This document shows, piece by piece, positions 16,028 to 49,340 of a DNA stretch of 64,000 nucleotides (within the stretch, counting starts at the first letter, position 1; the number at the start of each line of letters is the position of its first letter). The notes under the pieces were generated by a model. The model was not told the DNA's origin, did no database searches, and saw only the letters and a program-made list of their open reading frames with translations. The position numbers and the translations under genes are program-made. The DNA is from Syntrophotalea acetylenivorans (GTDB lineage: Bacteria > Desulfobacterota > Desulfuromonadia > Desulfuromonadales > Syntrophotaleaceae): NCBI RefSeq assembly GCF_001887775.1, contig NZ_CP015519.1:558001-622000 (forward strand), written 5' to 3'.

Positions 16028-16064
16028 TAGGCCCGCTCGCAACGGCGAGTGGTTAAACAATTGA

Positions 16065-16139
<75 letters not shown>

Positions 16140-16146
16140 TGAATTC

Positions 16147-16178
16147 AAGGCCTCAGGACAAAGTCCTGAGGCCTTTAT
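16147..16178 (+). terminator. Terminator-like hairpin after tRNA-Gly copy 1
   Basis: AGGCCTCAGGAC-AAA-GTCCTGAGGCCT with a weak T tail (TTATA). It may separate or process the two tRNA-Gly transcripts. Confidence 0.6.
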
Positions 16179-16234
16179 AAAATATTTGATAAAGTTAGAC
16201 CGCGGTTACAGCGCGGGACAATAAAAATGATTGA

Positions 16235-16309
<75 letters not shown>

Positions 16310-16315
16310 CTATTT

Positions 16316-16350
16316 CAAGACCTTGGGACCTTGTCTCGGGGTCTTTTTGT
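16316..16350 (+). terminator. Terminator after tRNA-Gly copy 2
   Basis: Hairpin AAGACCTTGGGAC...GTCTCGGGGTCTT followed by TTTGTTT. Confidence 0.65.
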
Positions 16351-23496: not shown

Positions 23497-23519
23497 TTGT
23501 TTCCCATTCGTTTCTTTGC

Positions 23520-23596
23520 GGGGCTGTAGTAGAGTCGGTTACAACGCCGGCCTGTCACGCCGGAGGTCGCGGGTTCGAGTCCCGTCAGCCCCGCCA
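23520..23596 (+). tRNA. tRNA-Asp (GUC), copy 1
   Basis: 77 nt with encoded CCA. Acceptor GGGGCTG/CAGCCCC; anticodon stem CCGGC/GCCGG around CTGTCAC, anticodon GTC. The D-stem GTAG/CAAC contains an A12-A23 mismatch (23531 opposite 23543). Confidence 0.95.
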
Positions 23597-23605
23597 TTTA
23601 GTTCC

Positions 23606-23681
23606 GGGCGAATAGCTCAGTTGGGAGAGCATCGGCCTTACAAGCCGAGGGTCACAGGTTCGAGCCCTGTTTCGCCCACCA
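23606..23681 (+). tRNA. tRNA-Val (UAC)
   Basis: 76 nt with encoded CCA. Acceptor GGGCGAA/TTCGCCC; anticodon stem TCGGC/GCCGA around CTTACAA, anticodon TAC. Confidence 0.96.
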
Positions 23682-23696
23682 AAATTCTGTATATGC

Positions 23697-23773
23697 GGGG
23701 CTGTAGTAGAGTCGGTTACAACGCCGGCCTGTCACGCCGGAGGTCGCGGGTTCGAGTCCCGTCAGCCCCGCCA
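23697..23773 (+). tRNA. tRNA-Asp (GUC), copy 2
   Basis: Identical to copy 1 including the D-stem A-A mismatch (23708 opposite 23720) and the preceding GC and following TTT, so this is a recent duplication around tRNA-Val. Confidence 0.95.
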
Positions 23774-23777
23774 TTTT

Positions 23778-32504: not shown

Positions 32505-33395
32505 ATGGATCTCAAAAACTACCTTAAAGACCGTCGGCAGCGGATTGACGCTGCCCTCGATCAGTATCTACCTGCTGAGGATTCCTTGCCTGAACGTCTT
32601 CATCAGGCTGTGCGTTATTCGGTTTTCGCCGGTGGAAAGCGGCTTCGCCCGATCCTTATGCTGGCGGCCTGTGAAGCCGTTGGTGGCGATACGGAGAAGA
32701 TCCTGCCGGCAGCCTGTGCCATGGAGATGATCCATACCTATTCGTTAATTCACGACGATCTTCCTGCTATGGATGACGACGATCTTCGCCGTGGCCGGCC
32801 AACCTGTCACAAAGTCTACGGGGAGGCCCTTGCCATTCTCGCCGGTGATGCGCTATTGACCGAAGCCTTCATTCAACTCTCCGGCATGAACGGTAATACC
32901 TTCCAGGCCGACGATGCCTGCCGCCGTGCGACGCATATAATCGCTCGTTGTGCCGGTTCCAGAGGCATGGTTGGCGGTCAGGTGGTCGACATGGAATCCG
33001 AAGGCAAAGAGATCAATCTGCCGACTCTGGAATATATTCATACCCATAAGACCGGTGCTTTGATTTTAGCCTCGGTGCAGGTCGGCGCCTTGCTTGGAGG
33101 TGCAGATGAAGCATCTTACGATGCATTAACTCGCTATGCCGAAGCATCGGGCCTCGCTTTTCAAGTGGCGGATGATATCCTCGATATCATTGGTGATCAG
33201 GATTTGCTCGGTAAGGATGTCGGCAGCGATGAGGCACGGGGCAAGGCGACCTACCCGGCATTGCTCGGACTAAGCGTCGCCCGGAACCGGGCGCGGGACC
33301 TGCGGGACTTGGCATTGGAAAGCCTGGCAGGCTTCGGTGAGGCCGCTGAACCCCTGCGCCAGATCGCCCATTATATCGTCGATCGCTCCTTTTAA
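32505..33395 (+). CDS. ispA: Geranylgeranyl/farnesyl diphosphate synthase
   Basis: Trans-prenyltransferase condensing IPP with allylic diphosphates to farnesyl diphosphate. 296 residues. First Asp-rich motif DDLPAMDDDDLRRGRPT, GGKRLRP for IPP binding, HTHKTGALI, and second Asp-rich motif FQVADDILDIIGD. In the usual xseA-xseB-ispA-dxs order, where dxs supplies the MEP-pathway precursor. RBS GGAGA precedes the ATG. Confidence 0.95.
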   Translation: MDLKNYLKDRRQRIDAALDQYLPAEDSLPERLHQAVRYSVFAGGKRLRPILMLAACEAVGGDTEKILPAACAMEMIHTYSLIHDDLPAMDDDDLRRGRPTCHKVYGEALAILAGDALLTEAFIQLSGMNGNTFQADDACRRATHIIARCAGSRGMVGGQVVDMESEGKEINLPTLEYIHTHKTGALILASVQVGALLGGADEASYDALTRYAEASGLAFQVADDILDIIGDQDLLGKDVGSDEARGKATYPALLGLSVARNRARDLRDLALESLAGFGEAAEPLRQIAHYIVDRSF

Positions 33396-33418
33396 ATAAA
33401 CATGGAGTACGCCAATCA

Positions 33419-33575
33419 ATGATGGTGCCGCAAAAAGACACCCTGCTACAGGGCAATCATTTTTCAGGACTTCGACATGTACTAGGTATGCTTTCACCCC
33501 TGAAAAATCAGAGCACCTTGCAGGCCGAAACTTTTGCTCAAGCCATCTCGTGACTATTTGCGAAAGCATAATTCA
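33419..33575 (+). repeat. Leader element copy A, upstream of dxs
   Basis: Fills the ispA-dxs gap up to the dxs start codon. It aligns over about 150 bases with copy B (45322-45491 on the minus strand). Shared blocks are ATGGTG-CGCAAAAAG, TTTTTCAGGAC-TCGACA, CACCCC-TGAAAAA, and a terminal TTGCGA--GCAT. Internal hairpin ATTTTTCAGG / CCTGAAAAAT (33459-33468 and 33499-33508). It also contains a 44-codon ORF (33419-33553). Could be a structured leader RNA or a dispersed genomic repeat. Confidence 0.65.
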
Positions 33576-35480
33576 ATGAGTATTCTGCAGCAACTTCAAT
33601 CACCCGCTGAATTAAAAGATCTGTCTCAGGGCGAACTTGAGCAACTCACCGCTGAATTGCGTGAAAAAATCATCTCCACAGTCTCAGCCACTGGCGGCCA
33701 TTTAGCGAGTTCATTGGGCGTTGTCGAGCTGACCGTCGCCTTGCATCGAGTCCTGAATTCTCCGGAAGACAAAATAGTCTGGGATGTTGGGCATCAGGCC
33801 TATGCCCACAAACTGCTCACCGGTCGCCTTGAACAATTTCATACCTTGCGCCAGCTTGGTGGCATCAGCGGCTTCCCAAAACGCCAGGAAAGCCCCCATG
33901 ATGCCTTTGACGTCGGTCATAGCAGTACTTCTATTTCCGCTGCTCTCGGTATGGCCGCTGCCCGGGACTGTCAGAATAAACAACAGAAGATGGTCGCTGT
34001 CATAGGTGATGGTTCTTTGACCGGCGGTCTGGCTTTTGAGGGACTCAACCATGCCGGGCACCTGAATAAAAATCTTATTGTCGTGCTTAACGATAATGAA
34101 ATGTCCATTTCCCCCAACGTCGGCGCCATCTCTTCTCTCATCAGCCGTAAGTTGACTTCCGAATTGGCGGTGAGACTTAAAAAGGAAGCTGAGAATTTTC
34201 TCAACCACGTGCCACGTTTCGGCAAAGACCTGCTCAAAGTCGCTCGACGTGCCGAAGAGGCCCTGAAAGGCTTTTTCACCCCAGGCATGTTATTCGAAGC
34301 CCTCGGTTTTGAATATGTCGGCCCCCTTAACGGGCACCGTCTCGACCAACTGGTGGACGCATTTGAAAATGTAGTCAACCTCGATGGGCCGGTTCTCGTC
34401 CATGTTGTTTCCCGCAAGGGACGAGGCTATCAGCCTGCCGAGGAAAACCCTTCTTTGTTTCACGGGATTGGTCCTTTCGACCGGGAGACCGGTGTCCCTC
34501 AAGCCAGTAAGGGAGGAAAGACCAGCTATACCGGAGTGTTCGGGAAAACCCTGGTTCAACAGGCCGAACAGGACGAGCGTATTGTCGCCATTACGGCGGC
34601 GATGCTTGAAGGAACGGGTTTGAAGGACTTTTCTCAATGCTATCCCGACCGGTTCTTCGATGTGGGGATCGCAGAGCAGCATGCGGTCACCTTTGCCGCT
34701 GGCCTTGCCAGTCAGGGCCTGCGCCCTACGGTGGCCCTCTATTCAACCTTTTTACAACGGGCTTATGACAACGTGGTCCACGATGTGGCGTTGCAAAATT
34801 TGCCCGTCACCTTTGCTATCGATCGGGCTGGCCTGGTCGGTGCCGATGGGCCTACTCATCACGGGGTGTTCGATTTCTCCTATCTGCGCCATATCCCCAA
34901 TCTCACTATCATGGCCCCCAGAGACGAATTGGAACTACAGCGGGCCATGGTAACCGCCACCACAGTCGAAGGTCCTTTTGCTTATCGCTACCCTCGGGGG
35001 CAGGCTCTCGGACTTCCCCTGGGAGACTTGCCCGCAGCTGCCGATATTGGTCGTGGAGAGAAATTGCGTGATGGTACCGACGGGGTTGTTTTTGCTCTTG
35101 GGGTAGTTTGTCGTGATGCTTTGCAAGCGGCTGCAGTATTGGAAAAAGAAGGGTTGTCGCTGGCTGTAATTGATGCCCGATTCCTTGCCCCTCTTGACAG
35201 ATCAATGATCTCAGATGAAGCACGACGTACCGGTTTGGTCTTTACCGTAGAGGAAAACGTATTGGCCGGAGGTTTCGGTTCAGCGATACTTGAATTGCTC
35301 GCCGAAGAGCAACTTACCCCCCGTGTACTGCGTATGGGACTACCCGATAGTTTTGTTGAGCAGGGAACTCAACAGGAACTTCGCGCCTTATGTGGTATCG
35401 ATGGTCCTGGAATTGCCAAACAGATTCGGAAATTTTGCAACATGGCTAAACCCGAGCCATCGGAAGAGTCCTCAAACTAA
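33576..35480 (+). CDS. dxs: 1-deoxy-D-xylulose-5-phosphate synthase
   Basis: TPP enzyme making DXP from pyruvate and glyceraldehyde-3-phosphate, entry of the MEP isoprenoid pathway and a precursor route for thiamine and pyridoxal. 634 residues. TPP/Mg site [18 protein letters not shown]...[25 protein letters not shown] and [15 protein letters not shown] in the second and third domains. ATG 33576 gives the standard [10 protein letters not shown] start; the upstream in-frame start at 33534 lies in the repeat element. Shine-Dalgarno weak (GAAAG). Confidence 0.97.
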
Positions 35481-43153: not shown

Positions 43154-45295
43154 TCAACCTTCCAGCATGGCGATCAACTCGTCAACGCTGGTTACCGGAG
43201 CTTGACAGGTTTCGCCCCGGCAAAGATAGGCGGTTGTCTGACCATCGATGGCCGCCTTGCCCTGCAGCAAGGGGGTCAGTTCGTTGAGTTGCGTATCTTC
43301 CGCATCGGCGCATAACACCAGGGTGCGGGGTAAAAACCGCTCGCGCAGGGCCCTTAACATTTTATCCATGCCCGTCCCGTTTAGGTCGCTTGCCAGGACC
43401 ACCACATCCTTGGGACCCAGAGCAAAGTCCAAGGCGCAGTAGAGCAGAGATGTGCCGGTGGGATAGCGGGCGGCTTGGGCAAGGCTGGTTTTAATAGCTG
43501 CCTCGCCCCGCTCGGTCATGGCTTGATCGCCGGTCAAGGCCGCAAGCCGCAGCAAATTCCAGGCAGCAGCCGAATTGCCCGCCGGTACGGCACCATCTAT
43601 GATTGTTTTACTGCGAGTCAATACGGTTTCCGCATCTTCTGCACTGTCGAACAGGTTGCCCTGGCCATCCCCGAACAAACGTTCCATATCTGCAGTCAGT
43701 TCCAGAGCCATAGCCAGATAACGGCTGTCGAAGCCCGCCTGATAAAGTTCGATCAAGCCCCAACAAAAGAAGGCGTAATCGTCGAGGAAACCGGGCACCG
43801 CCGCTTCGCCCTGACGGTAACGACGCAACAGACGACCATCATCGCGGCGCAGGTTATTCAGGATGAAGTCTGCGCTGGCACAGGCGGCAGCCAGATACTC
43901 CTCCTTATCTAGAACCGTTGCCGCCCTGGCCAAAGCGGCGATCATCAAGCCGTTCCAGGCGGTCAGTATCTTGTCGTCCCGATGGGGCCTTATGCGTTCT
44001 TCCCGGGCCGTAAACAACATTTGCCGCCCAAGAGCCAGCACTTCGCCAAGCCGTTCCGGTTCAATGCCGAACCAGGCGGCCCACTGATTAACATCCATTT
44101 CCAGCCGAACAATGTTCTTGCCTTCAAAATTACCTTGTTCAGAGACTTCATAACAGTGAGAAAAGATGGTGCCGTGTTCATGACCGAGCACTTCCTCGAC
44201 CTGTTGCGGCGTCCACAGGTAAAAAGTCCCTTCGACTCCCTCGGAATCGGCATCCTCACCGCTGTAGAATCCCCCCTGTTCATCGGTCAGGTCACGCAGA
44301 ACATATTCGCTGACTTCGTCGACCATGGTGGAAAAGAAAGGATCTCTGCTGGTTTGGTAGGCATCCGCCGCGGCCAGGGTCAGCAAAGCCTGGTCATAAA
44401 GCATCTTTTCGAAATGGGGGACCCGCCAGTGGGCGTCGACGGCATAGCGATGCACACCAAAACCGATGTGGTCGTAGGTGCCGCTCAATCGAATGTTTTG
44501 CAGGGTTCGCATGGCCATGGTCTGCGCATTTTCAAGCCCGAGGCGCTGACCAAGGCGCAAAAGAAGGGAGAGGTTGTGGGGAATAGGGAATTTGGGCGCC
44601 TCGCCAAAACCTCCCCGGTCCTTGTCAAAGGTCTTGAAAAAATGGGAATAGGTTTGCTCCAGGGGCTCTTCGGTGAGGTGTTGGCCCTCGGTATTGCCTG
44701 TAGCCCCCTTCTCAAGATTTATCAGCGATTCAGTCAGTCTTTGCCCTGAATCGAGGAGTTGCTGGCGATTGCTCTGCCAGGTATTGCCGATCCGCTCGAG
44801 TATATCGGTGATACCGGCCATATCCCCCCGCGCCTCGCGGGGCATATAGGTGGCAGCGTAGAAAGGCTGTTTGTCCGGAGTGATAAAGACATTAAGGGGC
44901 CAGCCGCCTCCGCCGGTGAGGATCTGGCAGGCCGACATGTAGGTGTTGTCCACATCGGGGCGCTCCTCGCGGTCGACCTTGATCGGGACGAACAAGCGAT
45001 TGAGAACGGCCGCCACTTCCTCGTTTTCAAAGGATTCGTGTTCCATGACGTGGCACCAGTGGCAGGTCGAATAACCAATGGACACCAGCACAGGTTTATC
45101 CTCGCGCCGGGCCAGAGCAAAGGCCTCTTCTCCCCAGGGGTGCCAGTCGACGGGGTTTTCGGCGTGCTGCAGCAGGTAAGGGCTCTTTTCGAAGATCAGG
45201 CGGTTATAGTGATCGCCGCCGTCGGCAGGCAGGGTGCTGGTATCAACGGCGGACAGGCGACTGACGGTGTCTTGCTGGACGGGGTCCTGTTTCAT
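43154..45295 (-). CDS. Thioredoxin-like DUF255 (YyaL/SSP411 family) protein
   Basis: 713 residues. The N-terminal domain has the family hallmark [29 protein letters not shown] and a thioredoxin-like [10 protein letters not shown] (CxxC), then [15 protein letters not shown]. The rest resembles an (alpha/alpha)6 barrel ([56 protein letters not shown]). Biological role is unsettled for the family. It is monocistronic with a 390-base upstream region holding leader element B. Confidence 0.88.
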
Positions 45296-45321: not shown

Positions 45322-45491
45322 TTATCCATAATCAGATTTGATGCACTCGCAATAAAATCATAGGATGGCGAAGCAAAGATTTCATCCGACAAGGCTTGGT
45401 GTTTTTTCAGGGGGGTGAAGAAATACATCGAGGTTGTCGAGGTCCTGAAAAAACGCCGTGACGCCGCGGGTCGGACTTTTTGCGACACCAT
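45322..45491 (-). repeat. Leader element copy B, upstream of the DUF255 gene
   Basis: Minus-strand element homologous to copy A (33419-33575), ending 26 bases before the DUF255 ATG. Hairpin GTTTTTTCAGG / CCTGAAAAAAC (arms 45401-45411 and 45444-45454, loop 32). Relative to copy A, one stem pair changes from A-T to T-A, so pairing is kept. An 82-codon ORF (45243-45491) crosses into the DUF255 gene and is probably not real. Confidence 0.65.
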
Positions 45492-45551
45492 TATTTTTCA
45501 GGATAACAGAACCCGCCGATGCGGGCAAACCGCCGTCATGACTTGTGAAAT

Positions 45552-46771: not shown

Positions 46772-47254
46772 TCAGGAGTCCTTCATAGTCGTAAAGCGTT
46801 TGACATAAGTCAGCCGGTCGTCTCCGGGGCGATAGAAGTCCCGGATGCGGTTTTCTTCGCAGTATCCGGCCTGGCGATAAAACTCACGAGTCCGCTGGTA
46901 ATGGCCCTGGGACGAAGTTTCCAGGCAGATCATCCGTCCGCCGGCGGCACGGGCCTGCCGCTCGGCATGACGCATAAGCTGTCGCCCAATTCCCTGCCCC
47001 TGGCAATCCGGGTCAACGGCGATCCAGTAGATATCGTAGGTCCCCTCGGTCATGGGCACCGGACCGTAAAGGATATAGCCTTGCACCTCATCGCCGCCAT
47101 TGGCAACGGCGACGCGGTAGTCCTGCTGCAGCGGATCGTTGATCATGATCTCCAACAACTCCAGAGCGCAAGCGATCTCCACCTCGGTAAAGGCCTCGCA
47201 TTGGTGCAGAATCAAAATCAGGGCGGGCAGGTCGGTAGCGCGTAGTTCACGCAT
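46772..47254 (-). CDS. GNAT family N-acetyltransferase
   Basis: 160 residues: ELRATDLPALILIL start, and the acetyl-CoA loop WIAVDPDCQGQGIGRQLM followed by ETSSQGHYQRTREFYRQAGY. Much shorter than the beta-lysine acetyltransferase AblB (~270), so not a clear AblB. AAGGAG precedes the ATG. Its start overlaps the end of the upstream ATP-grasp gene by eight bases and kamA follows four bases after its stop; the substrate is probably an amine produced in this operon. Confidence 0.85.
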   Translation of the reverse strand: MRELRATDLPALILILHQCEAFTEVEIACALELLEIMINDPLQQDYRVAVANGGDEVQGYILYGPVPMTEGTYDIYWIAVDPDCQGQGIGRQLMRHAERQARAAGGRMICLETSSQGHYQRTREFYRQAGYCEENRIRDFYRPGDDRLTYVKRFTTMKDS

Positions 47255-48257
47255 GAGATATCTCCTTGCGGCGCTGAGCCAGGCTCACCATCCGGGCAAT
47301 GAATTCGGGATAGGTCATTCCTGCGGCGCGGGCCGCCCGGGCCAGGCCGGCGTCCGGTGCTATGTCGGGGTTGGCATTGACCTCCAGGATATAGGGCACC
47401 CCCTCCCTGAATCGGATATCGATGCGGGCGTAATCCCGGCATTCCAGGATTTTGAAGGCTCTCAACGCCACATCCTTGATCAGCACCTCTTCGCGAAAGC
47501 GCAGCGTTGCCGGGCAGACCGGGCTCGTGCCGCTGAACTCCGCGGAGTCTTCTTGCCACTTGCCGCTATAACTGACAATGGGGTGGGGCAGGGCCGGATC
47601 GAAGCGAATCTCCGAGATCGGCAGTACCACCGGCGGGCTGTTGCCGATGATGGCCACGTTGAATTCACGACCGACGATGAACTCTTCGACCAGGGCGTCC
47701 TGGCGATAGGTTTGATGGATATAGCGGATCCGGTTGTGAAGGGCCTTTTCGGTAGCGACGATGCTGTCGCCGGTAATGCCGAGGGAGGCGTCCTCAAAAC
47801 GCGGCTTGACGATCAGGGGATAGGTTAGTCCCTTGATTTTTGGAAGCTGACCACCGTTCCGCACCAGGATATGGCGGGGGGTAGGCAGATGATGGGCGTT
47901 GAACAGGTCCTTTGAGCGGGCCTTGTCCTGGCTCAGGCCTAAGCAATAGGGAGTGGCGCCGGTAAAGAACAAGCCGAGCAACTCCAGCAGGGCGGCTACA
48001 TGCATCTCACGGCTGCTGTCGCCCCAGAAGCCTTCGCACAGGTTGAACACCAGGTCGCAGGCACTGTTTCTTAGACAGGTGATAAATTCGCCGATGTCGG
48101 CAAGCAGGGGCACAAGTACCGCCTCATGGTGCAGGCTGTGCAAAGCCGCCAGTACCGCTTCGGCTTCGTGCCGGGCGCCCTGCTCGGACAGCAGGTCGAT
48201 GGACTCCCCCCGGGCCGGAGTCGCCGGGGCTTCGTTAAAGCAGACAGCAATCCGCAT
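47247..48257 (-). CDS. D-alanine--D-alanine ligase-like ATP-grasp protein 1
   Basis: 336 residues. N-domain RIAVCFNEAPATP; ATP-grasp parts YPLIVKPRFEDASLG, DALVEEFIVGREFNVAIIG, and the Mg/ATP residues in RIDIRFREGVPYILEVNANPD. These match Ddl-type carboxylate-amine ligases, which form peptide bonds via acyl phosphate, but the N-terminal loop differs from true Ddl and no murein genes are nearby. ATG 48257 with GGGGG upstream is preferred; the ORF could extend to 48308 inside the previous gene. Overlaps gene 2 by 23 bases. Confidence 0.85.
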   Translation of the reverse strand: MRIAVCFNEAPATPARGESIDLLSEQGARHEAEAVLAALHSLHHEAVLVPLLADIGEFITCLRNSACDLVFNLCEGFWGDSSREMHVAALLELLGLFFTGATPYCLGLSQDKARSKDLFNAHHLPTPRHILVRNGGQLPKIKGLTYPLIVKPRFEDASLGITGDSIVATEKALHNRIRYIHQTYRQDALVEEFIVGREFNVAIIGNSPPVVLPISEIRFDPALPHPIVSYSGKWQEDSAEFSGTSPVCPATLRFREEVLIKDVALRAFKILECRDYARIDIRFREGVPYILEVNANPDIAPDAGLARAARAAGMTYPEFIARMVSLAQRRKEISHA

Positions 48258-49305
48258 GGCTAACCCCCTTAACCAGATGGTGACGGGCAATGGCCGCATC
48301 AGCCACACCGAGAATCAACTCGTCGTAAGACAGACCCGCTGCGCGGGCCGCCTTGGGGAAACAGCTGTTCTGCTCAGGGCGAGGCAGCACGCCGGGCAGG
48401 GGATTGAGTTCGATAATGTTTGGCTGACCGCTGGCGTCGAGGCGCACATCGATGCGGCACCAGTCCCGACAGCCCATAACCTGAAAGGCCTTTTTGCAAA
48501 CCCTTTCGATGGCATTGTGCAGCGACGGATCAAGAGGTGCCGGGCAGGCAAAAATATCCAAGGGTTGCTCTTCGGTGTCCCAGATCCATTTGGCCTCAAA
48601 AGAATAGATAGGATTGACCCCGGCCGGCAAAGCGGCGAAGTCGATCTCGACAACGGGCAGTATACGCAGAGATTCGCCGTTTCCGAGCAGCGCCACGGTG
48701 AACTCACGACCAGGCAGAAACTCTTCGATCAGCACCGGCTGACGGTACGTTTTCAGCGACCATTCCACCTGACGCAGCAACTCCTTGCGGTTAGTCACCA
48801 GAGCGCGGTCGGTGACTCCCTTGCTGGAGCCTTCCAGAATGGGTTTGACGATCAGCGGATAGCGCAACCGGGCCGGAACATCTACCAGACTCTCTACCAG
48901 GGCGAAGCGTGGCGTCGGCACCCTATGGTAACTGAGAATCTCCTTGGTGCGGCGTTTGTCCAGACAGTTGCCGAGGGTCAGCGGATCGCTGCCGGTGTAA
49001 GGCAAGCCGAGCATGTCGAGCAGGGCAGGGATCTGGGCTTCGCGGCTGGCACCGAGCAGACCTTCGGCCATGTTGAACACCAGGTCCGGTCGCAGAGCCT
49101 GAAAGCTGGCAAAGGCGTAATGGTCGGCCTCCACCAGGGATACCCGGTGGCATTGAGAAAGGGCGGAGCGAACAGCATCGATCGTGTCGAAATCGTCCCA
49201 CTCGGCGTAGAGGTCTTCCGCTGCGGCAAGAGGAGCGACGGAGGGCGAATTGGATGGCGCGCAGGCGGAATCCTGGCGCAGATTGAACGTGAGCGCGATG
49301 TGCAT
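48235..49305 (-). CDS. D-alanine--D-alanine ligase-like ATP-grasp protein 2
   Basis: 356 residues, a distant paralogue of the downstream ligase. HIALTFNLR start, DLVFNMAEGLLG, LGLPYTGSDPLTL, YPLIVKPILEGSSKGV, PVLIEEFLPGREFTVALLG, and RIDVRLDASGQPNIIELNPLPG. The GSSKGV loop and ELNPLPG are closer to genuine Ddl (EGSS.G, EINT.PG) than protein 1. First gene of the operon; AAGGGG six bases before the ATG. Two Ddl-like ligases in series suggest two successive amide bonds or two substrates. Confidence 0.85.
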   Translation of the reverse strand: MHIALTFNLRQDSACAPSNSPSVAPLAAAEDLYAEWDDFDTIDAVRSALSQCHRVSLVEADHYAFASFQALRPDLVFNMAEGLLGASREAQIPALLDMLGLPYTGSDPLTLGNCLDKRRTKEILSYHRVPTPRFALVESLVDVPARLRYPLIVKPILEGSSKGVTDRALVTNRKELLRQVEWSLKTYRQPVLIEEFLPGREFTVALLGNGESLRILPVVEIDFAALPAGVNPIYSFEAKWIWDTEEQPLDIFACPAPLDPSLHNAIERVCKKAFQVMGCRDWCRIDVRLDASGQPNIIELNPLPGVLPRPEQNSCFPKAARAAGLSYDELILGVADAAIARHHLVKGVSHADCCLL

Positions 49306-49340
49306 ATGTAACCCCTTTTATAAAGCCTGACGGAACGAAT

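Follow-up and report, generated by a model that had tools for sequence, protein, structure and literature searches.

A mobile family of ~150-bp repeats, very probably MITEs, precedes dxs and often adjoins stop codons in Syntrophotalea acetylenivorans

ERIC elements are 127 bp long and duplicate TA. These ERIC/IRU repeats of enterobacteria are often located at the 3' ends of genes (PMC10969869, PMC2229807). The family described here resembles them in its size, its imperfect palindrome, its tens to hundreds of copies, its mostly intergenic location and its frequent placement at gene ends, but differs by a 6-bp duplication of the type ANNNNT, by ends of the form GATG...CATC, by its occurrence in another bacterial order and by exact insertion at stop codons. 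Identity with ERIC was rejected, as the combination of TA duplication and ERIC ends was not found, the sequence itself being compared through Rfam only. The MITE Chunjie of Geobacter uraniireducens is summarised as 178-235 bp long, with 38 full copies and a location inside an operon (Chen et al. 2008, PMC10969869). Compared by this description only, Chunjie is likewise a MITE, from a related order or class, but is longer than the ~150 bp found here. For Pelobacter carbinolicus, which belongs to the same order as our source organism, multicopy non-coding intergenic sequences are listed in a supplement (PMC3543383); their likeness to the present family is again one of description only.

A second group of known systems is relevant with respect to orientation. 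Tn7 with TnsE, the IS200/IS605 elements IS608 and ISDra2 and other insertion sequences whose transposases contact the beta clamp insert in an orientation that follows the replication fork (PMC5371812; as summarised there, Gomez et al. 2014 treat fork-oriented insertion). The family described here shares this property, although the reported cases are autonomous elements and this family is non-autonomous.

Two copies in front of dxs and a DUF255 gene

The window analysed here is a stretch of 64,000 nucleotides (positions 558,001-622,000) of the S. acetylenivorans genome, which consists of one contig of 3,218,469 bases. Within the window, ispA encoding a polyprenyl synthetase (32505-33395, plus strand; Pfam PF00348, 205 bits) is followed by dxs (33576-35480, plus strand; Pfam PF13292, 410 bits), and the gap between them carries copy A of the family (33421-33571, plus strand), a ~150-bp MITE. 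Its left end falls at 33420 or 33421, and 4-5 bases separate its right end from the dxs start codon ATG at 33576. Copy B (45339-45493, minus strand) lies upstream of a gene for a DUF255/thioredoxin-like protein (43154-45295, minus strand; Pfam PF03190, 258 bits). The homology of both copies, recognised already in the first-pass annotation, was confirmed with 68% identity over 155 columns (E = 1e-7), and the alignment also agreed with the claim that both face their downstream genes, dxs and the DUF255 gene, in the same way. The distance of 0-26 bases to the start codon given there had to be corrected, as copy B stops 43 bases short of the start of DUF255 at 45295. Copy A matched the family profile with 102.7 bits and the family consensus with 79% identity over 112 bp, and copy B with 134 bits and 87% identity, respectively. 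The left end of copy A points toward the replication origin, corresponding to leading-strand orientation; copy B is one of 7 among 68 copies in lagging-strand orientation. As detailed below, we conclude with high confidence that both copies represent a non-autonomous transposable element (MITE) which is mobile, oriented with the replication fork and found in excess at stop codons.

Two further duplications were observed in the window. Regions 16055-16346 and 23517-23776, both in tRNA clusters, contain duplicated genes for tRNA-Gly(gcc) and tRNA-Asp(gtc), whose flanks are identical or nearly so, and region 47247-49311 is a diverged tandem duplication with a period of ~1.03 kb.

Structure, distribution and mobility of the family

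A search of the whole genome with copy A revealed 43 matches, and the consensus revealed more, with identities up to 97%. The first 26 bases of the consensus were found at 50 places with at most 3 mismatches, compared to 0 for a reversed control pattern. A profile search of genome stretches picked partly around such matches yielded 62 copies with at least 100 bits and 68 copies with at least 60 bits after merging of overlaps, numbers which represent copies found rather than a density. The part of the first-pass annotation which considered a repeat family that inserts is thus borne out by ~70 copies and their mobility.

Aligned copies begin and end abruptly (GATGGCGTCGCAAAAA ... TTTTTGCGAATGCATC), with GATG and CATC at their termini. 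The ends form imperfect terminal inverted repeats of ~16 bp, with GATGGCGTCGCAAAAA at the left and GATGCATTCGCAAAAA as the reversed right end, and can be described as GATGNNNTCGCAAAAA ends; the congener G004 holds 319 exact end motifs. The consensus can be written as TGATGGCGTCGCAAAAAGTCCGCCC...TTTTTCAGGACCTCGACATAC-loop-GTATGCC...CCTGAAAAA...TAGGACGAAATTTTTGCTTAGCCATC CTATGAG TTTTTGCGAATGCATCA. Such terminal repeats, the size of ~150 bp, the copy numbers given above and the lack of a conserved reading frame are those of a MITE. The first 126 bases of the consensus are predicted to fold into a single long imperfect hairpin (z = -6.0 as RNA, -5.3 as DNA). Pairing was retained in 89% of cells, and 18 pairs were changed on both sides compared to 9.6 in shuffled controls; departures on one side only comprised 78 G-U and 62 A-C. 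These pairing data do not separate upkeep of the palindrome at the RNA level from upkeep at the DNA level.

The copies diverge in length, with internal deletions down to ~31 bp. An element of this minimal size at C1:1945512-1945544 (L261) contains little beyond both terminal repeats and is flanked by AATTGT/AATTAT, which suggests that the ends alone are enough for movement. A second minimal element is located at C1:1719810 (L258), and minimal derivatives span about 31-45 bp. Head-to-tail arrays of 2-3 copies at C1:1258493-1258948 (L009), C1:3065092-3065386 (L070) and C1:2409451-2409746 (L042) apparently arose by unequal recombination or by insertion beside an existing copy.

The family was matched in 29 of the 58 genomes searched, our own included, at E <= 0.001, with a patchy presence among relatives. 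When 84,980 species genomes were scanned for an exact 25-mer, the matches listed belonged almost exclusively to Desulfuromonadales, with a few from bins labelled Bacteroidales, Chloroflexi or Desulfobacteraceae, which are probably mis-binned. The plasmid and phage collections searched contained no family match; in IMG/VR, one contig classed as viral matched (L335:272-403, IMGVR_UViG_3300033553_000705), and its copy starts right on the TGA closing an open frame. Another MITE-like family, having the ends TAGGAGGCTGTCSGA...TCSGACAGCCTCCTAG, was also observed (L151:1354-1475, L153:3374-3470, L320, L327). It is nested in some copies and also occurs directly before DUF255 genes of relatives, where the gaps look like general landing sites.

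Evidence for mobility came from target duplications and from orthologous sites. Many copies are bounded by 6-bp duplications, for example AAGGTT, AACTTT, ATGGAT, AACGGT, ATTCTT and TTTATT. Among 40 full-ended copies, 12 matched in at least 5 of 6 bases, compared to 1.9 expected from shuffling (2000 rounds, maximum 8), and the matches peaked at a length of 6. The duplicated target has the form ANNNNT, and the next base is a purine, as seen by eye in about 18 of 20 copies located outside stop codons. At ispA-dxs, the site is empty in the congeners G001 (L295) and G004 (L297), in which the gap consists only of TAAATCAACCATGGAGTACGTCCAGCA. A third congener, G002 (L296), carries an independent insertion of the family ~20 bp upstream, in opposite orientation and with the duplication AACCAT; no element was found at this place in the other genera checked. 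The DUF255 site lacks the element in three of four congeners, and the fourth, G004, has a copy which may or may not correspond to copy B. Similarly, the stop-codon site between metY and cysK is empty in L336, L337 and L339 and filled in L338 and L340: three congeners read ...CTT TGA, whereas in the source genome and in G001 the element follows ...CTT T. In G001 (L340), the metY-cysK copy is directly followed by AATGCATTGCAAAAACTTATAG, the remnant of a second, inverted end, so that this stop-codon site seems to have been struck twice.

Target duplications, empty sites and independent insertions show that the family is mobile. Together with the sharp ends and the hairpin, the duplications and empty sites identify it as a MITE of ERIC-like build, and the sites at ispA-dxs and DUF255 show that it is not a leader of dxs or the DUF255 gene.

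Insertion at dxs and readings of copy A

The insertion in front of dxs can be traced base by base. Copy A is bounded by the left duplication ATCAAT (33415-33420, plus strand), which has the 6-bp length of the family duplications, and by the right duplication TTCAAT (33572-33577, plus strand), which has 1 mismatch, is supported by the empty sites L295 and L297 and ends with the AT of the dxs start codon. The motif GGAG (33404-33407, plus strand), conserved in L295, L296 and L297, is likely the ribosome-binding site used by dxs before the insertion. Its distance to the dxs ATG is 11 nt in the empty congeners and now ~170 nt in the source genome. The element hit the out-of-frame TGA of ATGAGT, moving the ribosome-binding site off the dxs start codon and creating a 44-codon upstream frame (33419-33553, plus strand; from translation), which starts at the former position of the dxs ATG and stops 22 nt before the present one. 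Translation of dxs now probably proceeds via re-initiation or from the in-frame upstream start TTG at 33534.

Two functional readings of copy A compete with that of a MITE. The first-pass annotation had left room for a small protein, and the 44-codon frame does stand behind the old dxs ribosome-binding site. Frames read from the same ATG in 58 copies, however, gave 18 different outcomes from 3 to >50 codons, and the coding score of the region is weak (9); the frame is therefore not a conserved small protein, and we regard a coding function inside copy A as scarcely conceivable. A cis-acting RNA leader, also suggested there, would be riboswitch- or attenuator-like and have dxs and DUF255 as its regulon; the sense orientation of both copies before genes, the stability of the hairpin predicted for RNA and the excess of pairs changed on both sides would agree with it. 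Yet this leader reading fails at dxs, where two congeners lack the element, a third carries it in reverse and the other genera checked have none, so that the conservation with the regulated gene across species expected for a riboswitch was not found, and DUF255 is without it in three of four congeners. Moreover, the ~70 copies adjoin unrelated genes in all four contexts, no Rfam family matched at its gathering score (best weak matches E >= 4.8), a sigma-70-like promoter was not found, the 78 G-U against 62 A-C departures give little sign of RNA wobble tolerance, and a hairpin is expected of a palindromic transposon in any case. An RNA leader is consequently very improbable. The distribution of the family shows no tie to gene starts, and its commonest position is precisely that of the stop codon which ends the preceding gene.

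Orientation, stop-codon position and transposition

The GC skew, by which alone origin and terminus were placed, puts the origin at about 2.25 Mb and the terminus at about 0.645 Mb, just beyond the window. With respect to these positions, the leading strand contains the top strand of 61 of the 68 copies. Genes show the same preference to a lesser extent (224 of 326, 69%), and the orientation of the copies exceeds this gene bias with p = 4e-5. Of 29 copies with at least one neighbouring gene that does not point the way of the element, 26 are nonetheless aligned with replication (chance p = 8e-6), which demonstrates a fork orientation independent of gene direction. In G008, which belongs to another genus, the locally G-rich strand carries 17 of 22 copies, and among copies with short flanks from many genomes it carries 71 of 104; in G050 the bias is weak (about 10-11 of 14). 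Such an orientation may result from insertion coupled to the replication fork, a behaviour known from transposases in contact with the sliding clamp. Elements of the IS200/IS605 type make no target duplication and possess subterminal hairpins and a fixed tetranucleotide at one end. Their single-strand transposition, considered as a source of the polarity, is excluded because the present family has 6-bp duplications.

The stop codon of the upstream gene coincides exactly with the initial TGA of the element in 23 of the 68 copies. The last base of the target duplication then is the T of TGA, TAA or TAG, and the GA of the element restores TGA. Upstream co-directional genes end at the exact position in 23 copies, at -2 in 1 and at 0 in 4, with few in the next 30 bases and no more than 4 at any other single position; gene starts and ends were taken from a simple hexamer model, which nevertheless places the stops of long frames reliably. 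In 11 of 12 stop-codon copies with a readable duplication, its right-hand copy continues TGA, TAA or TAG, indicating a cut of the ancestral stop codon behind its T; for one case, metY-cysK, empty orthologous sites confirm this. A left-flank site model derived from the copies outside stop codons predicts only ~1% at stop codons; this model covers non-coding sites and stop codons and omits the purine after the site, which would raise the value only few-fold. Among 53 copies from other genomes that have a co-directional gene upstream, 23 occupy the exact stop position, compared to only 2 of 22 in the G008 sample. No report of a MITE inserting exactly at stop codons was found in the open-licence literature searched.

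The plain dispersed repeat that the first-pass annotation set against its own proposal implied many copies at random orientation and position: the copies are indeed many, but neither their orientation nor their position is random. The strong polarity along both replichores could instead indicate a repeat spread passively by recombination, or a KOPS-like or ter-like motif which organises the chromosome and is held in one orientation by selection. This is highly unlikely given that target duplications, empty sites and exact insertion at stop codons show transposition, that exceptions in opposite orientation are tolerated, that copies diverge in length down to the ~31-bp deletion forms and that the family is patchy among relatives. 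A more serious alternative accepts the MITE but attributes both biases to survivorship, insertions that break frames, promoters or ribosome-binding sites having been lost and those at gene ends on the majority strand having remained. It would profit from the 69% of genes on the leading strand, from the unchanged protein after insertion at T|GA and from the palindromic GATG/CATC ends, which restore a TGA stop in either orientation. The orientation nevertheless exceeds the gene bias and persists in 26 of 29 copies whose surrounding genes do not all point that way, the positions next to the 23 exact ones are sparsely occupied though they should be equally harmless, and site preference alone accounts for ~1% only. 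Survivorship as the whole explanation is therefore possible but rather doubtful. Selection against other sites surely contributes, and the stop-codon excess could partly reflect it, yet it fails to account for a single position standing out from those around it. Returning to biases set at insertion, we tentatively propose that the transposition machinery, and not later selection, might recognise stop codons and have a fixed polarity relative to the fork, the GA end rebuilding TGA and leaving the host gene intact; for the stop codons, the mechanism would combine preferential use of the site with this restoration.

The MITE is presumably moved in trans by a transposase of the DDE type, a class suggested by the 6-bp duplication alone. 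A search of 2.55 Mb for paired ends at a spacing of 0.5-5 kb and with agreeing 6-mers did not reveal an autonomous partner sharing the ends of the family, nor did partial listings of terminal inverted repeats. The paired-end search yielded one weak match and one MITE pair flanking an OmpA-like gene (L226:3295-4401). The latter consists of two inverted copies with identical outer 6-mers ACAATT and is possibly a composite mobilisation or a coincidence, the right copy having a near-duplication of its own. Copies with a left end only in L097, L137, L157, L158, L160 and L195 were rejected as partners, being truncated or rearranged MITEs. A truncated copy at C1:2562840-2562905 (L114) adjoins a phage-type integrase gene, which is no transposase for this family.

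These results remove a false regulatory element from the front of an essential isoprenoid gene and replace it by a mobile family found across Desulfuromonadales. At dxs, the insertion constitutes a natural experiment in which a ribosome-binding site was parted from its start codon. With its replication polarity, this MITE joins the transposable elements for which sensing of fork direction is known. If the stop-codon preference belongs to the insertion reaction, it would represent a natural, damage-free insertion of DNA at gene ends, and it would raise the testable question of how a DNA transposase finds a codon that is meaningful only in translation.
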